Notes under the pieces: generated by a model
The model's input: the letters and a program-made list of their open reading frames with translations, nothing else
Databases searched by the model: none
Told to the model about the DNA's origin: nothing
Part shown: piece by piece, positions 4,370 through 60,376 of the stretch
How positions within the stretch are numbered: the stretch's first letter is position 1
Layout of the letters: the number at the start of each line of letters is the position of its first letter
Assembly (NCBI GenBank): GCA_947458455.1
Contig: CANGYJ010000007.1
Coordinates: forward strand, 186,001 to 250,000
Source: Verrucomicrobiaceae bacterium
GTDB taxonomy: Bacteria > Verrucomicrobiota > Verrucomicrobiia > Verrucomicrobiales > Verrucomicrobiaceae
Length of the DNA: 64,000 nt
Direction of reading: 5' to 3'
Made by a program: the position numbers and the translations under genes

Positions 4370-5413
4370 TTGGGCATGGGAGTAGGTGTGAACCGAGAAC
4401 TGCGAACCGAGAACTGCTTACTGGCCCTCGAAAGCTCCTGTGACGAGACGGCTGCGGCCGTGTGTGATCTCGACGGGAATTTGAAAGCCAGCCGCATCGC
4501 CTCGCAGATCGAGATTCACCGCGAGTTTGGCGGTGTCGTTCCAGAAGTGGCCTCGCGAAATCACATCCTGCATGTGCGTCCGCTCGTGCAGCAGGTTTTA
4601 AATGATGCAAACATCACGCTGAAGGATCTGGCCGCCTTTGCTGCCACGAGCGGCCCCGGTCTGGTGAGTTCGCTGCTTATCGGCACTTCCATGGCCAAGG
4701 CACTCGCGGTGGCGGAGGGGAAGCCGTTTTTGGCCGTAAACCATATGGAGGGCCATCTGCTCTCCCCTTTCATGGGCGTGAATGGTCCGGTGAGACCATG
4801 CATAGGTCTCATCGTCAGCGGCGGACACACCATGCTGGTTCGGGTGCACGAGGTAGGCTGCTACGAATTGCTCGGCCGCACTCGCGATGACGCGGCAGGT
4901 GAGGCCTTTGACAAGGTCGCCAAGATGATCGGCCTGCCGTATCCGGGCGGCCCGGAGATCGACAAACTGGCTGCGAAGGGGAATCCGGCGACATTCGCCT
5001 TTCCACGCAGCTTTCTCGATGGCAAGAGCCTCGAGTTCAGCTTCAGCGGACTCAAAACCGCCGTGCTCTACGAGCTGCCTCGGATTGATTTGAAGAACGA
5101 GCAAACCCTCGCCGATGTGTGTGCCAGCGTGCAGGCCGCCATTGTGGAGGTGTTGGTCGAAAAACTGGTTCTCGCCGCCAAGCTCACGAAGAGTCAGCTC
5201 GTGGCCGTCAGTGGCGGTGTGAGCTGCAATCGCGGCCTGCGTGCCGCTTTGCAGGCTCGCTGCAAAAAAGCCGGTCTCGAACTTCTCCTCGCGGAGCCCG
5301 CCCTATGCACGGACAACGCCGGCATGATCGCCTTTGCTGCCGCTCAGCGTTTCAAGCTCGGCCAAAGCTCCTCGCTGGAGGCCGAAGTGGATCCAAATCT
5401 GCCACTCGTCTAA
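4370..5413 (+). CDS. tsaD: tRNA N6-adenosine threonylcarbamoyltransferase
   Basis: LLALESSCDETAAAV, NHMEGHLLSPF, VSGGHTMLV, GRTRDDAAGEAFDKVAKMIGLPYPGGPEIDKLA. Exact start uncertain. Confidence 0.95.
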   Translation: MGMGVGVNRELRTENCLLALESSCDETAAAVCDLDGNLKASRIASQIEIHREFGGVVPEVASRNHILHVRPLVQQVLNDANITLKDLAAFAATSGPGLVSSLLIGTSMAKALAVAEGKPFLAVNHMEGHLLSPFMGVNGPVRPCIGLIVSGGHTMLVRVHEVGCYELLGRTRDDAAGEAFDKVAKMIGLPYPGGPEIDKLAAKGNPATFAFPRSFLDGKSLEFSFSGLKTAVLYELPRIDLKNEQTLADVCASVQAAIVEVLVEKLVLAAKLTKSQLVAVSGGVSCNRGLRAALQARCKKAGLELLLAEPALCTDNAGMIAFAAAQRFKLGQSSSLEAEVDPNLPLV

Positions 5414-5454
5414 TCCGACCCGAAATGTCAGGGAGGTTGTCGCGTTCTCAGATC

Positions 5455-8322
<2,868 letters not shown>

Positions 8323-8325
8323 GCC

Positions 8326-9750
8326 ATGAACGCCCCTTTTTTCCCCTGTGCTGGATCGCGAGCGCTGCATGCGCCCACGCGGCGTGAGTTCGTGTATGGA
8401 CTCGGAACCTCGCTCGGCAGCGTGGCTTTGACCTCCCTGCTTGCCGCTGAGCAAAAAAGTCCACTCGCACCGAAGCCTCAGATGGTGCCTGCGAAGGCGA
8501 AGAACTGCATCTTCCTCATGATGGAAGGCGGGCCGAGCCACATCGACTGCTTTGATCCGAAGCCCGTGCTCGAAAAGCTCCACCTCAAGGAGTTCACCCG
8601 CGAAGGGAAGATGAAGTCCGCGATGGAGAGCGGGAAGCGCTACTATGTGAAGTCGCCCTTCAAGTTTGCGCAGCACGGCCAGAGCGGCGCGTGGATGAGC
8701 GAGCCGTGGCAGCATCTCTCCAAGGTAGCGGACGAGCTTTGCTTCTACCGAGGCTGCCAGGTCGATTCGGTGAATCATCCCACGGCGATGTATCAAATGA
8801 ACTGCGGCAATCGCTTCGGTGGCGATCCGGCGATTGGCTCCTGGGTGAATTACGGTCTCGGCTCCGTGAATCAGGACCTGCCCGGCTTCATCGTGCTGCC
8901 GGAGATCAGCTATCCACAGGGCGGCAGCGCCAATTGGGGCAATGGCTACCTACCCGCGCACTTCCAGGGCACCGCACTGAGAGCCAAAGGATCGCCCATC
9001 CTCGATCTCCAGCCGCCGCAAGGTATCACACCGGAGCATCAGAGGGCTAATCTGGATTTGTTAGGCAAGCTGAACGCCAAACATGCCGAGGAGCACCCAT
9101 GGCATGACGAGTTGAAAGCCCGCATGAACAACTATGAACTCGCCTTCCGCATGCAGATGCAGGTGCCAGAGGTCATTGGTCTCGAAAAGGAAGATGCGAA
9201 GACCAAGGAAGCCTACGGCATCGGCACGGATGCCACGGATGCCTTTGGTCGGAAGTGCCTGCTCGCCCGGAAGCTCGTCGAGAAAGGCGTGCGTTTTGTG
9301 CAGCTCTACGCGGGCACCTGGGACAGCCACGATTACATCGAGCGGGCGCATGGGAATCTCATCCGGCAGGTGGATCAGCCTATTGCCGCGCTCATCGCTG
9401 ATCTCAAACAGCGCGGCTTGCTCGATGACACGCTCATCGTCTGGTGCGGCGAATTCGGCCGCACACCGGACAATGGCGTGCGCGGCGGCACCGCCTATGG
9501 CCGCGATCACAACCCCAAGGCGATGACCATCTGGATGGCCGGCGGAGGTTGCAAAGCCGGCCACAGCATCGGTTCCACGGATGATCGCGGCATGGAGGCC
9601 ATCGAGGAGGTGCATCATGTGCGTGACTTACACGTCACCCTGCTGCGTCTGCTCGGTCTGGATGACAACAAACTCACCTTCTATCACGGCGGCCGCTTCA
9701 AGCAGCTAAGCCAGATCGGCGGGCAGGTGATCGACAAGCTGATCGCCTGA
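8326..9750 (+). CDS. DUF1501 domain-containing protein
   Basis: NCIFLMMEGGPSHIDCFDPKP, NCGNRFGGDPAIGSWVNYGLG, FVQLYAGTWDSHDYIERAHGNLIRQVDQPIAALIADLKQRGLLDDTLIVWCGEFGRTPDNG. Three bp after the PSD1 gene. Confidence 0.93.
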   Translation: MNAPFFPCAGSRALHAPTRREFVYGLGTSLGSVALTSLLAAEQKSPLAPKPQMVPAKAKNCIFLMMEGGPSHIDCFDPKPVLEKLHLKEFTREGKMKSAMESGKRYYVKSPFKFAQHGQSGAWMSEPWQHLSKVADELCFYRGCQVDSVNHPTAMYQMNCGNRFGGDPAIGSWVNYGLGSVNQDLPGFIVLPEISYPQGGSANWGNGYLPAHFQGTALRAKGSPILDLQPPQGITPEHQRANLDLLGKLNAKHAEEHPWHDELKARMNNYELAFRMQMQVPEVIGLEKEDAKTKEAYGIGTDATDAFGRKCLLARKLVEKGVRFVQLYAGTWDSHDYIERAHGNLIRQVDQPIAALIADLKQRGLLDDTLIVWCGEFGRTPDNGVRGGTAYGRDHNPKAMTIWMAGGGCKAGHSIGSTDDRGMEAIEEVHHVRDLHVTLLRLLGLDDNKLTFYHGGRFKQLSQIGGQVIDKLIA

Positions 9751-9758
9751 GGTCGCCT

Positions 9759-9782
9759 GTAGCGGAAAACGTCCGTTTTCCG
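9759..9782. repeat. REP-like single hairpin (P5, GTAG head)
   Basis: GTAG-cggaaaac-GTCC-gttttccg between convergent DUF1501 genes. Confidence 0.8.
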
Positions 9783-32304: not shown

Positions 32305-32377
32305 AGAGCCAACCCTGACGCATTTCGCCCACTCTTTGTCGTGGAGTCAGGCAGGCGAGAGCCGTTATGATGGGCAC

Positions 32378-34009
32378 ATGAAGCCTCTGCTCGCTCTCTT
32401 CCTTCTTTCCGCCACCTCCTTGGCCGATGACTCGGCCAAACTCAGCGCCGTGTTCGCCAAAGACGGCGTCGTGACGATTCCGGCGGGTGATTACCATCTT
32501 GATGGCACGCAGCCGATCCCGCTGCGCTCAAACACGACCGTTATGGCCAACGGCGCACGCTTCATCCTGCCGGAGACGCTGCCGGATCAGGCTCGTGTGG
32601 TGCTCTTTGCCGGGGAAAACATCGCGCACTTTGCCTGGCATGGCGGCGAGTTCGTTGGGCATGTGTTTGATCCGGCGCAGAAGGAAAACTCATGGGAACC
32701 GAATGCGAACACGAAGGGCATTGAGATCACCACCACCGTCGCGGGAGGCACGCATGACCTCTTGTTTCGCGAGGTGAAGTCGAACGGCATGGCCGCCGCG
32801 GTCATTGGTGTGCATGGGAAGTATGGCAAGAGCAGCGAGAGCGAGGTGGAGCACTATGCCGAGCGTGTCGCGCTCGAAAGCTGCACGCTTTTGCGCAGTG
32901 GGAAGTTCATGTGGGACTACGGCTACCTGTGGCAGATCATGACCTACCCCGAGGCCTACGAGCCTTGGGAGGTCGAACGGGCCAAAAAGTACTTCCGCAC
33001 CGATCTCATGCGCGACGCAACCTTCAGTGGCGATCTCGTGAAGTTCGACAACACGATCAAACCCATCGCCATCAGTGCCACTGAGGAGCCAAAAGAGGCC
33101 ATCACCTTCCTGGGAGCTGATTTGCCGAAAAACATCGTCCGCGGCCTGCAATACTTCGTCGTCGAGTCCACGCCCGAGCACATCCAAATCGCCGAAAAAC
33201 CCGGCGGAGCGCCGATTCGCTTCGAGGGCGACGGCAGCGGCGCTATGGCCTTCAACATCCAGGCCACCTACCTCGCCGCCTATGCCCCGACCGGCAGCGG
33301 ACCCGGCAAAGGTGCTTTTGACATCGTCGGCGCACGCGAGGTGCGCGTCACCGGTTGCCAGCTCAGCGCCATAGGCGACACGATGCACATCCAGCGCTGC
33401 CGGAACATCGTCTTCGCAAATAATCACATCCTCGGCAGCCGCATGGGCGCGTTCTTTTTGGCCGAGTTCTGCCAAAACGCCACCATCACCGGCAATCTCG
33501 TCGACGGCACCAACGGCAGCCGCGTCATCAGCGTCGAGAAAAGCTGCACGGACGTCACCATGACCGGCAACACCTTCCGCAACGGAGGTCGCGGTGCCTG
33601 GATCAACCAGCCCGTGAACTTCGTCATGACTGGCAACGTCTTCATCAACAACACCACCAAAAACGAGCCCGACATGCGCCGCGGTCGCATCGCCTTCCAA
33701 ACCGCGAAGCCAGGCACTTTTCCCGAGCTTTACTTCACGCTTTACGAGCCCGGAGCCTCCTACGGCCCCATCATCGTGAAGGACAACCTCTTCCAGCTCG
33801 GTGCCCACTGCCCCGAAGAAGCCGTGACCTTTGCGCCAAATGGCCATGACCTCGTTTTCACGGGGAACACCTTCCAGCGAACCGGTGAACGGGTTGGAAA
33901 ACCCGTTCTACTCAGCGTCGATCCCACCTGCACGCGCAGCGCCATCGACGACAACCTCGGTTCCACGACCGTGAAGAAGCCCGTCGATTTCAACCACGGG
34001 CGGCGTTAA
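32378..34009 (+). CDS. Secreted right-handed parallel beta-helix protein
   Basis: MKPLLALFLLSATSLADDSAKLSAVFAKDGVVTIPAGDYHLDGTQPIPLRSNTTVMANGARFILP; repeats VFANNHILGSRMGAF, ATITGNLVDGTNGSRV, VTMTGNTFRNGGRGAW, FVMTGNVFINNTT. Confidence 0.85.
   Translation: MKPLLALFLLSATSLADDSAKLSAVFAKDGVVTIPAGDYHLDGTQPIPLRSNTTVMANGARFILPETLPDQARVVLFAGENIAHFAWHGGEFVGHVFDPAQKENSWEPNANTKGIEITTTVAGGTHDLLFREVKSNGMAAAVIGVHGKYGKSSESEVEHYAERVALESCTLLRSGKFMWDYGYLWQIMTYPEAYEPWEVERAKKYFRTDLMRDATFSGDLVKFDNTIKPIAISATEEPKEAITFLGADLPKNIVRGLQYFVVESTPEHIQIAEKPGGAPIRFEGDGSGAMAFNIQATYLAAYAPTGSGPGKGAFDIVGAREVRVTGCQLSAIGDTMHIQRCRNIVFANNHILGSRMGAFFLAEFCQNATITGNLVDGTNGSRVISVEKSCTDVTMTGNTFRNGGRGAWINQPVNFVMTGNVFINNTTKNEPDMRRGRIAFQTAKPGTFPELYFTLYEPGASYGPIIVKDNLFQLGAHCPEEAVTFAPNGHDLVFTGNTFQRTGERVGKPVLLSVDPTCTRSAIDDNLGSTTVKKPVDFNHGRR
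33887..33911. repeat. REP-like hairpin inside CDS (P4, GTAG head on minus strand)
   Basis: gaacgggtt-GGAA-aacccgttc-tac; reverse complement GTAGAACGGGTTTTCCAACCCGTTC. Confidence 0.88.
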
Positions 34010-36827: not shown

Positions 36828-39143
36828 TCATGGCACCAGCGGCACAATCTCCCGCGCCTTCTTCAAATCCGGCCTCGCAGGCCGAGGATCAAACCAGCGA
36901 TCCTTCGGCGTGGGCGCTTTGGCATCGAGATAGGCACCGAGACGCATTCGCAGGGCTTCAAAGGCAGGCTGTGTGTCTTTGCCAAACTGCGACTTGCCAG
37001 CGTCTTCCTCATTTTTCTTCACGAGTGTGGCGCTGAGGCCAGGAATGGCTCGCACGGCGGCCATGACGCTCTCGCGGCTCTCCCCACTGACGGCGCTGTA
37101 TTGCGTGAGATACTCGACGAGCTGCTGACCGGCGCGGAAGGTCTTCAGGCGCAGGCTGGGCACGGGGCCGTTGTCGGTGGGGTAGAGCACGGAGAGCTCG
37201 TCGGGCGTTTGCCAGGCGTCGGCTTTCCCGATGGTGTTCCAGGGCACCACGCCATCCGCGCCGAGCGACCAGGCCTCGACGCACCACGCGGCGTTGGCGA
37301 TGTTCGGCGTGCCAATGGCGTTCGCGCTGCCATACATGTAGTAGAGATTGCCGCAGTCCTTGGCGCGACGCTGAATGCGCGGCCAGTAGTCGCGCAGCAC
37401 GCCGCTGACGACTTCGACGTTCACGCAGTGATCGAGCAACTCGCGCTGCCACTGCGGGCGGGAAATGTCGGCGCGATAGGTGAGGTGGATGTTCTTGAAC
37501 GGCTCGGTGGCCTTCCAGAACTCTCGACCGTAGTGGCGGATGGCCCAAAAGTCCTGCGTGTGCACCGGTTCATCGAAAATCCACGCCGCGGTGCATTTGC
37601 GCCAGTCGTCCTTTTTGAAGTACACCTTGTTGTTGAGGTAGAATTCAAACATCGGCTCCGTCCAGCCTTTCGCTTCGAAGTGCCGCGCAATCTCCGCCGA
37701 CATCGCGCGGAACTGCGTCCAGTAGGCCTCATCGAACGCGCTCTCGATCCAGTAGCCGCCTTGGAAGTGCTCGTCGTGCTTCATCGGCCAGTTCTCGTTC
37801 AGCAGGAGGTAATACGCCTCCACCGGCACCGCGCCGCGTGGGAGATCGGTGAAGGCGCTGCCATCGAGCAGCGGGCCGAACTCGGCATCGAACTTCGTCC
37901 AGTCCCACTTCCCATCGCCACCGAGCTTTGGCGCGGGTTCGTCCACCTTGCCCGTCCAGCCGTAAGGCAACTGATTCAGCACCACGCGATGCTCATGCGC
38001 GAGCCGGTAGTAGTCACGCACATGCCCCGGCAGGCCGTAGGCGTTCATCTGCGGCAGGAACGACAGGCGATCCGGCAGCGTGAAGTTCCAAACCGTGACC
38101 GTGAAGGGCATCACGGTGCCATTCACCGTCACCGTGCCGCCGTGTTTGCCTGCGGGTGTGTTTTTGGGAATGTGGAGCTCGATGAAGGTGTCATCACCCG
38201 TGCCCGGCATGAGCGGATCATGCATGCCACCGACCTTCGGCATCGAGTAGAGCTTCACGCTCAAGCTTGGCGCTTTGACGATGGCCGGACCCGCGACCGA
38301 AAAACCCATCGTTTCGCCCTTCGCGGCGAAAAAGTGCGTGGAGGCCAGTTCGGAGCCGAAAACGTCTTTCGCGGGCAAATTCGGCTTTTCATCTGAAAGG
38401 GCGGGAATGGGCGGAAAGGTGACCGGATTGACCTGAGTGACCGGATGGACGGTTTTTGGAGCCTCCACCGCACCATCTTCGAGCCACAGCGTGAAGTAGG
38501 GCTTGTGGATGCGCTTGTCCTCGATGCTCGAAACGTAGCGGTTCACGAAATTCGTGAACTTCACCGCATCACCCTCCCGCGTGTATTCGTTGCCGATGTC
38601 GTCGATGACATAAAAGCCATGCGAACGGCCATCGAGCCTCGCCTGGGCCACTTCGGGCGCGATGGGGATGACCTGCCAGCCTTCCGCATCCGGCGCGGAG
38701 GCCTCGCCAAAGCCCCACAGCGATCCGCCTTCGCCGCAAACGACGCTGGTCATGTCGGGATCGTTGTTGCCCCAGCGCAGCTCACCGGTTTTCGCCCATG
38801 CGAAAGAACTCGCGCCCGGTGTCTTCGCGTAGCTGCTGCCGGTGCCTTCCACCCAATCCTGCGAGATCGTGGAAACCGTCGTCCGCCGCAGTGGGGCCTC
38901 TGGCGACGCGAGATGCACATGCAGTTGCGCTTTGACGATCTTCTTCCCGCGCAGCGCCACCGGATCAAAGTCGATGAGAAAGAACTCCTGGATGCCCTTC
39001 AGCTTCAGCCGGTGCGATCCGCCATTGTTCCCCTCCACCTCCTTCGAATAAGCGGAGATCCATAGGTCACGCGAGACTTCGACGCGTTGCTGCGCGTGCA
39101 AAGTGAAGGCGGTCAGGAGGGAGAGAGCGATGCGTGTGATCAT
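36828..39143 (-). CDS. DUF4091 domain-containing (GH123-like) secreted protein
   Basis: MITRIALSLLTAFTLHAQQRVEVSRDLWISAY...WNFTLPDRLSFLPQMNAYGLP...WIFDEPVHTQDFWAIRHYGREFWKATEPFKNIHLTYRADISRPQW. Confidence 0.82.
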   Translation of the reverse strand: MITRIALSLLTAFTLHAQQRVEVSRDLWISAYSKEVEGNNGGSHRLKLKGIQEFFLIDFDPVALRGKKIVKAQLHVHLASPEAPLRRTTVSTISQDWVEGTGSSYAKTPGASSFAWAKTGELRWGNNDPDMTSVVCGEGGSLWGFGEASAPDAEGWQVIPIAPEVAQARLDGRSHGFYVIDDIGNEYTREGDAVKFTNFVNRYVSSIEDKRIHKPYFTLWLEDGAVEAPKTVHPVTQVNPVTFPPIPALSDEKPNLPAKDVFGSELASTHFFAAKGETMGFSVAGPAIVKAPSLSVKLYSMPKVGGMHDPLMPGTGDDTFIELHIPKNTPAGKHGGTVTVNGTVMPFTVTVWNFTLPDRLSFLPQMNAYGLPGHVRDYYRLAHEHRVVLNQLPYGWTGKVDEPAPKLGGDGKWDWTKFDAEFGPLLDGSAFTDLPRGAVPVEAYYLLLNENWPMKHDEHFQGGYWIESAFDEAYWTQFRAMSAEIARHFEAKGWTEPMFEFYLNNKVYFKKDDWRKCTAAWIFDEPVHTQDFWAIRHYGREFWKATEPFKNIHLTYRADISRPQWQRELLDHCVNVEVVSGVLRDYWPRIQRRAKDCGNLYYMYGSANAIGTPNIANAAWCVEAWSLGADGVVPWNTIGKADAWQTPDELSVLYPTDNGPVPSLRLKTFRAGQQLVEYLTQYSAVSGESRESVMAAVRAIPGLSATLVKKNEEDAGKSQFGKDTQPAFEALRMRLGAYLDAKAPTPKDRWFDPRPARPDLKKAREIVPLVP

Positions 39144-51788: not shown

Positions 51789-52877
51789 TCACCCCATCAG
51801 CGCCACGGCGATGGGATCAACGAGTGGTTTACCTGTCCGGGTGAGCCAAACGAAAGCCTTGTCATACCCCAGCAAGCCCTGATCACGCAGTGTGTCGAGC
51901 ATGCGGCGTTGATCGGGGGCGATGAGATCGAGGGGCAAGCCACGCTTCGTGCGTAGTTCGAGGCCGAAGCGTTCCGTGCGGCGGTTTTCATCGGTGAGCA
52001 CTTCGACATCCGTCGCGGTGTTTTCACCGGCGAGGGTGAGGGCGATGTAGCGATCTGTATCCGGCACGTTTTTCCAGCGGCGGCCTTCGACCGTCGAGAA
52101 CGCTCCGGGGCCGATGCCGAGGTAATCCGCGCCGAGCCAGTAGGCCTCGTTGTGCTGGCTGCGATGGCCGGGCTGGGCGTAGTTGGAGATTTCGTAGTGC
52201 TCGAAGCCGCCGGCTTCGAGCAGGTCGATGGCCAGATGGAAAAAATCGGCATCACGACCTTCATCGGTGCGGAATTCACCTTTTTGGAGGCGACGGAAAA
52301 AGTCGGTGTCCTCCTCATAATTGAGGTTGTAGGCCGAGATGTGGTCGGGCTTGAGCGAAAGCGAGTGTTCGAGGGTTTGACGCCAGGTTTCCAATTCCTG
52401 GCCGGGTATCGAAAACATCACGTCGAGGTTCAAACTGGGAAATTTCGCCTCGCGAAGCACCTGCCACGTTTCTTCCGCTTCGGCGGGCGAGTGATCGCGA
52501 CCTAGCGTTTTGAGCGTGGCGTCATCCCAGGCCTGGATGCCGAGGGAGATGCGTGTGACGCCCATCTCACGCATCAGCGCCGCTTTGGAAGGCGTGACGG
52601 TGCGTGGATTGGCCTCCATGGTGAATTCGGCCACCTCGCTAAAGTCCACCCGCTCACGCAAGCCACGCAGCAGGCGCTCCAGATGCGTGTCACTGAGCAT
52701 CGTGGGCGTGCCGCCGCCGAAAAAGATCGTCTTCGGCTTCAGCGGCTGCTTGGAGGCCTCTTTGAGCAGCGCATCGACAAACGCCGTCATGTCCGTCCCG
52801 CCCGGCGTGTGCTTGTGAAAGCTGCAATACGGGCAGATGCGGTGGCAAAAAGGGATGTGGACGTAGAGGTGGCGCAA
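51789..52877 (-). CDS. hemW: Radical SAM heme chaperone HemW
   Basis: MRHLYVHIPFCHRICPYCSFHKHTPG...FGGGTPTMLSDTHLERLL...ISLGIQAWDDATLKTLGRDHSPAEAEETW. Confidence 0.95.
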   Translation of the reverse strand: MRHLYVHIPFCHRICPYCSFHKHTPGGTDMTAFVDALLKEASKQPLKPKTIFFGGGTPTMLSDTHLERLLRGLRERVDFSEVAEFTMEANPRTVTPSKAALMREMGVTRISLGIQAWDDATLKTLGRDHSPAEAEETWQVLREAKFPSLNLDVMFSIPGQELETWRQTLEHSLSLKPDHISAYNLNYEEDTDFFRRLQKGEFRTDEGRDADFFHLAIDLLEAGGFEHYEISNYAQPGHRSQHNEAYWLGADYLGIGPGAFSTVEGRRWKNVPDTDRYIALTLAGENTATDVEVLTDENRRTERFGLELRTKRGLPLDLIAPDQRRMLDTLRDQGLLGYDKAFVWLTRTGKPLVDPIAVALMG

Positions 52878-60345: not shown

Positions 60346-60376
60346 GAAGGGCGGGCAGGAGTGCCCACCTCACTTT
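60346..60376. repeat. REP-like hairpin (P9), minus-strand copy of P1 unit
   Basis: Reverse complement AAAGTGAGGTGGGCACTCCTGCCCGCC vs P1 AAAGTGATGCGGGCACTCCTGCCCGCA. Confidence 0.75.

Follow-up and report, generated by a model that had tools for sequence, protein, structure and literature searches.

A GTAG-footed REP family found largely inside genes in a Verrucomicrobiaceae bacterium and its relatives

Results

P4 and P2 are copies of one dispersed family

The P4 hairpin belongs to a REP family with a GTAG foot, and the members of this family occur mostly as inverted pairs (REPIN/BIME). The family forms dimers, flanks a RAYT gene in a REPtron arrangement, occupies sites that are empty in other orthologues, is read in frame within genes, accumulates at a hot spot and covaries in its stem. 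We are highly confident of the reading in which P4 is a GTAG-type member served by the RAYT encoded on contig 5 and in which in-frame copies of the family most likely survive in tolerant linkers.

The window, by which we mean the entire 64,000-nucleotide stretch analysed, is contig 7, 186001-250000, of the genome studied (G000). It contains the following members of the family and their host genes.

32336..34009, + strand: P4 host gene, right-handed beta-helix / NosD-like protein, 557 aa
33887..33911, - strand: P4, single GTAG-footed REP of the GC-pair subfamily; ERVGKPVL in frame on the + strand; empty site in 16 orthologues
5119..8322, + strand: P2 host gene, PSCyt1-PSCyt2-PSD1 (DUF1549/DUF1553) protein; REP pair in the PSD1 linker after a conserved Tyr-Arg
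7547..7571, + strand: P2, a REP of the AT-pair subfamily and left half of an inverted pair; in frame, RRTSFPTRS
7578..7602, - strand: right-hand partner of P2, in partial decay (GTAGGACGAGTTTTCTGACTCGTCG); G016 and G042 have it intact

The initial annotation described P4 and P2 as two 25-mers of common ancestry that differ by one stem pair and lie in unrelated genes. Both were found where it placed them (reverse complement of 33887-33911, GTAGAACGGGTTTTCCAACCCGTTC; 7547-7571 on the + strand, GTAGAACGAGTTTTCCAACTCGTTC), and they differ at positions 9 and 20 alone, two bases that are partners in the 9-bp stem. They are the sole matches in the window at three or fewer mismatches (expected 0, from 100 dinucleotide shuffles), and as single-stranded DNA they fold at -9.6 and -8.6 kcal/mol, with z about -5.5 and -6 for P4 and P2, respectively. 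Each lies in frame in a long ORF, P4 being read as ERVGKPVL in a beta-helix (NosD-like) protein and P2 as RRTSFPTRS in a PSCyt1-PSCyt2-PSD1 cytochrome-type protein. The proposed common ancestry holds, as both are copies of one family dispersed in G000, in many congeners and in one MAG of another order. P2 proved to be the left half of a head-to-head pair that had been overlooked; this pair folds end to end as one long hairpin (-15 kcal/mol, z -6.6), as a REPIN does. P4 is a single REP and is therefore not a REPIN by itself.

A pattern search of both strands of G000 returned 48 matches, some of which are one hairpin read from the other strand and many of which stand in inverted pairs; the reversed control pattern returned 0. 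Reading these regions resolved 42 copies in 24 clusters, many of them head-to-head pairs with the foot outermost. The comparison was extended to ten genomes, a chosen sample of REP-rich relatives of which several are incomplete. The genus of this group is Prosthecobacter in NCBI terms, and one member (G005) is the named isolate Brevifollis (now Prosthecobacter) gellanilyticus NBRC 108608. Of the 237 copies in the ten genomes, 187 have a GTAG foot and 35 a GTAA foot; the loop is TTCC in 196, and the stem is 9 bp. A GTAG foot on a short palindrome and many dispersed copies, often as inverted dimers, are the marks of a GTAG-type REP. Chance palindromes were rejected as an explanation. The RAYT had no match in PHROG and exact members of the family were absent from viral contigs, so a phage origin of the family was set aside.

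A RAYT-like gene is flanked by the family

PF01797 has 12 matches in G000, and the one at C5:353280 falls in a RAYT-like gene. This Y1_Tnp gene (contig 5, 352905-353558) carries family members upstream, downstream and within its 3' end, and thus has the organisation of a REPtron, a Y1/HUH transposase gene flanked by its cognate REP. Its translation contains an HVH motif and a YIANNP tyrosine segment; alignment rows L133, L136 and L286 were left out of any residue argument. The protein passes the PF01797 Y1_Tnp model (32.5-33.9 bits, cut-off 23) and scores 65.6 bits (E 4.4e-18) against NCBIfam NF047646 REP_Tyr_transpos. As the latter score is below the equivalog cut-off of 80, we name the gene only a Y1/HUH RAYT-like transposase.

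Orthologues with 67-85% identity in G005, G039 and the Chthoniobacterales MAG have the same REP on their flanks, and this MAG has 42 matches on both strands, equivalent to about 30 or more copies. A relative with 58% identity is accompanied by a diverged hairpin with a similar core, and near more distant RAYTs the hairpins were unrelated or none was detected. No RAYT above about 45% identity was found in G008, G011, G016, G040 or G042, each of which has at least 13 REP matches. We read this pattern as loss or assembly gaps: in these genomes the cognate enzyme was either lost or missed in incomplete assemblies, or another mobiliser also exists.

More than half of the clusters lie inside genes

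Taken literally, the term REP implies a location mostly between genes, and this family departs from it. Intragenic clusters account for 14 of 24 in G000 and 76 of 144 in the ten genomes, the latter at 39 independent host sites. A cluster was called intragenic from codon usage on both sides and ORF length, with Pfam confirmation for the G000 hosts only, and gene-end clusters labelled '5end?' or '3end?' by codon usage were excluded from these counts. The P4 REP is an in-frame addition of 18 nt in G000, G006 and G015 and is absent in 16 orthologues, where the empty site reads NTFQN-KPATIVVDP. In a glycosyltransferase gene on contig 5, about 21 nt have given way to a REP pair; G016, G040, G042 and others have the empty site. 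Some hosts carry the REP between domains, for example in an ADH-GFO fusion.

Two further hairpin families

Two other families of hairpins were found in the window.

6400..6424, + strand: family-2 REP (AGTGATGCGGGCACTCCTGCCCGCA), left member of another in-frame pair within the P2 host gene, SDAGTPAR
6438..6462, - strand: family-2 REP, right half of that pair, AGKSARIT
9759..9782, + strand: family-3 GTAG-footed hairpin (GTAGCGGAAAACGTCCGTTTTCCG), just 3' of ORF 8326-9750

Family 2 (GCGGGCACTCYTGCCCGC, foot AGTGA) has 60 pattern matches in the genome and flanks two other RAYTs (C7:60598-61194 and C16:77526-78119). Its clusters are intragenic in 22 of 43 cases and are read as SDAGTPAR...AGKSARIT; the pair at 6400-6462 (AGTGATGCGGGCACTCYTGCCCGCA) shares the PSCyt/PSD1 gene of P2 and is likewise in frame. 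Family 3 has 16 matches genome-wide, and its copy at C5:69108 is near another Y1_Tnp gene. One gene, for a DUF7133/FG-GAP/HEAT protein (L046; C8:301722-306701 in G000), contains family-1 REPs (the P4 family) in two locations and, in a further one, a family-2 pair; all are read in frame. Elsewhere in the window we observed a degenerate family-2 hairpin at 60350-60374 (- strand), near the end of a long ORF, and hairpins at 38541-38559 and 52198-52222 that have GTAG beside one foot, lie in ORFs and are single copies within the window.

A PSD1 linker is an insertion hot spot

Different PSD1 (DUF1553) paralogues harbour seven of the 14 intragenic clusters in G000 (7/24 of all clusters), each time in the same linker just after a conserved Tyr; 0.02 would be expected from 58 PSD1 matches with 25 linker codons each. 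Across the ten genomes this linker holds 37 of 144 clusters, about a quarter, in 15 independent paralogue groups. PSD1 hosts were called with a profile built from REP-free PSD1 sequences, and REP residues were masked. One way to arrive at this concentration is inheritance from a REP-bearing ancestral PSD1 gene that duplicated, and many sites are indeed common to several species as orthologues. However, left REPs are often identical between paralogues that share about 35-50% identity, and many species have orthologues of the P2 gene and of the C8:83357 gene without a REP. The junctions also differ by 0-4 codons, which shows that the insertions are not one inherited event. We therefore rejected inheritance within the gene family as the source, leaving it the smallest chance of any alternative considered here.

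All REPs at PSD1 sites are read as RTSFPTRS and/or NELENSFY. This strong frame bias would be expected if the repeat were selected as a peptide motif, a protein linker whose DNA symmetry is secondary. Against this, other copies are read in other frames (VERVFQLV, ERVGKLVL, TSWKTRS), many copies are intergenic, and two-sided stem changes alter the peptide while keeping the pairing (RTSFPTRS to RTSFQARS). Selection for the peptide is accordingly very unlikely.

In REP-free orthologues the PSD1 linker is hypervariable. Hairpins are 35 times as dense in the linker as in the flanking gene, in a set that includes the family-1 REPs themselves. Orthologues of the P2 gene have family-2 palindromes in this linker in G001 and G017 and a degenerate one in G023. 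The presence of other palindromes in the same linker favours tolerance over target choice, and we infer that tolerance is the cause of the hot spot. A match of CG-T-A-G to the Tyr-Arg codons could add a target preference; an upstream C at position -1 is also common at non-PSD1 insertion sites. The linker may alternatively be a true landing site, to which RAYT-driven REP pairs are steered or where their product is favoured; the mobile palindromes would then continually supply in-frame variation to the linkers of a large extracytoplasmic enzyme family and would be rewritten in concert in each genome. We regard this last proposal as rather unlikely. By eye, empty orthologues of the C8:83357 PSD1 gene (L357 in G008, L347 in G016, L346 in G006) contain other short inverted repeats in the linker, possibly further palindrome families.

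Stem pairs covary across copies

The A-T to G-C difference between P4 and P2 had been taken as a compensatory change and as a sign of selection on the stem, with the prediction that paired substitutions would exceed unpaired ones among copies genome-wide. This prediction held. Among 91 distinct copies, gathered by similarity and without a pairing filter, there were 66 paired two-sided changes against 10.9 +/- 2.8 after shuffling, and only 0-5 two-sided pair-keeping changes when the partner was slid. In the eight inner pairs, pairing survives 62 two-sided changes and is broken by 1. The stem-pair difference is a subfamily marker present in many copies; it therefore reflects copying from two masters, and compensation by two mutations in these genes is not required. 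The strong covariation supports constraint on the hairpin, but not selection acting through the host genes, and it does not single out a specific agent, as selection for mobility and hairpin-templated correction predict the same result.

Strong covariation would also follow if the hairpin were retained for a role in the mRNA (as an attenuator, a stability signal or a pausing signal), as selection on RNA structure yields such changes; the fold is stable on either strand, and the loop on the P4 coding strand is GGAA, of GNRA type. Against this, copies are found in either orientation, within unrelated genes as well as between genes, and the hairpin is missing from most orthologues. One-sided G-U pairs in the inner stem are rare (9 cells versus 62 two-sided Watson-Crick changes), and no Rfam family matched anywhere in the window. 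We consider an RNA element highly improbable.

At orthologous host sites, a curated count from which three double counts were removed gave 12 paired two-sided changes, 12 one-sided changes and no unpaired double change. G011 carries the variant pair GAGCTTCCAAGCTC + GAACTTGGAAGTTC or a near form at three unlinked sites, namely the P2 orthologue, a second PSD1 gene and the glycosyltransferase insertion, where sister species have the common REP form. The occurrence of one variant pair at three sites indicates that a stem changes as a whole, whether through conversion, replacement or re-insertion. Both observations are compatible with pairing that is kept passively, by hairpin-templated (quasipalindrome) correction or inter-copy conversion and without selection. 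Passive maintenance leaves the constant GTA foot, the loop preference and the RAYT association unexplained; it has perhaps a modest chance of being correct, and can act together with selection for mobility. The loci with the G011 variant pair (L328 in G011, L104/L105 in G007/G011, and L220) look like concerted replacement or re-insertion.

Proposed mechanism

RAYT-driven insertion with survival of harmless in-frame copies is the likeliest mechanism, judged from sequence comparison. The RAYT would recognise the foot together with the folded single-stranded hairpin, would excise or copy the REP pair during replication, and would join it into target DNA that is probably also single-stranded. Insertions that break genes would be lost. 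Those in tolerant linkers may survive if the REP frame is open and mostly hydrophilic (RTSFPTRS...NELENSFY), because five of the six REP reading frames are free of stops. The largest such tolerant site would be the linker of the PSD1 paralogues, of which each genome has roughly 60, and it has been struck repeatedly. P4 was probably inserted in the common ancestor of three related species.

Discussion

Whether such insertions are harmless debris or shape proteins has been a question since intragenic REPs and RPEs were described. The 39 independent in-frame host sites with empty and filled orthologues, together with 15 parallel insertions into homologous linkers of related species, make target choice and survivor bias distinguishable by comparison. 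The family also offers naturally covarying REP variants together with a matching RAYT, which should be useful for recognition studies. Annotators should be aware that the repeated predicted peptides RTSFPTRS and NELENSFY are mobile DNA read as protein.

GTAG REPs with RAYTs have been described in the PVC group (Di Nocera et al. 2013, PMC3733652). That study reported sub-families whose stems differ by alternative complementary bases, noted that REPs occupy nearly the same position in two Xanthomonas recB genes, and described intragenic GTAG REPs, most of them in Opitutus terrae, so the kind of element is known. Our literature search found no paper on REPs in Prosthecobacter; within the literature searched, this REP family, its intragenic majority and the repeated arrival of in-frame copies in a single linker of a paralogous family look new.

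The closest known systems are the REPtrons (PMC3733652), which share with the present family a GTAG foot, a 6-13 bp stem, a short loop, head-to-head dimers and a RAYT flanked by its cognate REP, as well as alternative complementary stem bases between subfamilies, some in-frame copies and a verrucomicrobial host. The REPs in that study are mostly intergenic, whereas here more than half of the sampled clusters are intragenic and the PSD1 linker alone accounts for the quarter noted above. The REPINs of Pseudomonas fluorescens SBW25 are likewise inverted REP doublets that fold as one larger hairpin, and in both cases the doublet behaves as the mobile unit, but only 14 of 1,067 repeat 16-mers overlap genes in SBW25 (Bertels and Rainey 2011, PMC3116915).

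TnpA-REP enzymes cut single-stranded REPs at CT or CA and use GTAG both for recognition and as a guide (PMC8266576). The systems studied in vitro (E. coli, S. maltophilia and Marinomonas) resemble ours in the HUH enzyme and the GTAG guide, and the perfect palindrome corresponds to their group 3, whereas the stem and loop sequences differ and the present enzyme is known from its sequence alone. Rickettsia palindromic elements (RPE; summarised in PMC3733652) are palindromes inserted in frame into numerous unrelated genes, where they persist as protein segments. The same source places RPE-4 and RPE-6 in the CGTC type, which has no known dedicated transposase (PMC3733652); the present family shares their in-frame insertion but has a GTAG rather than a CGTC foot.
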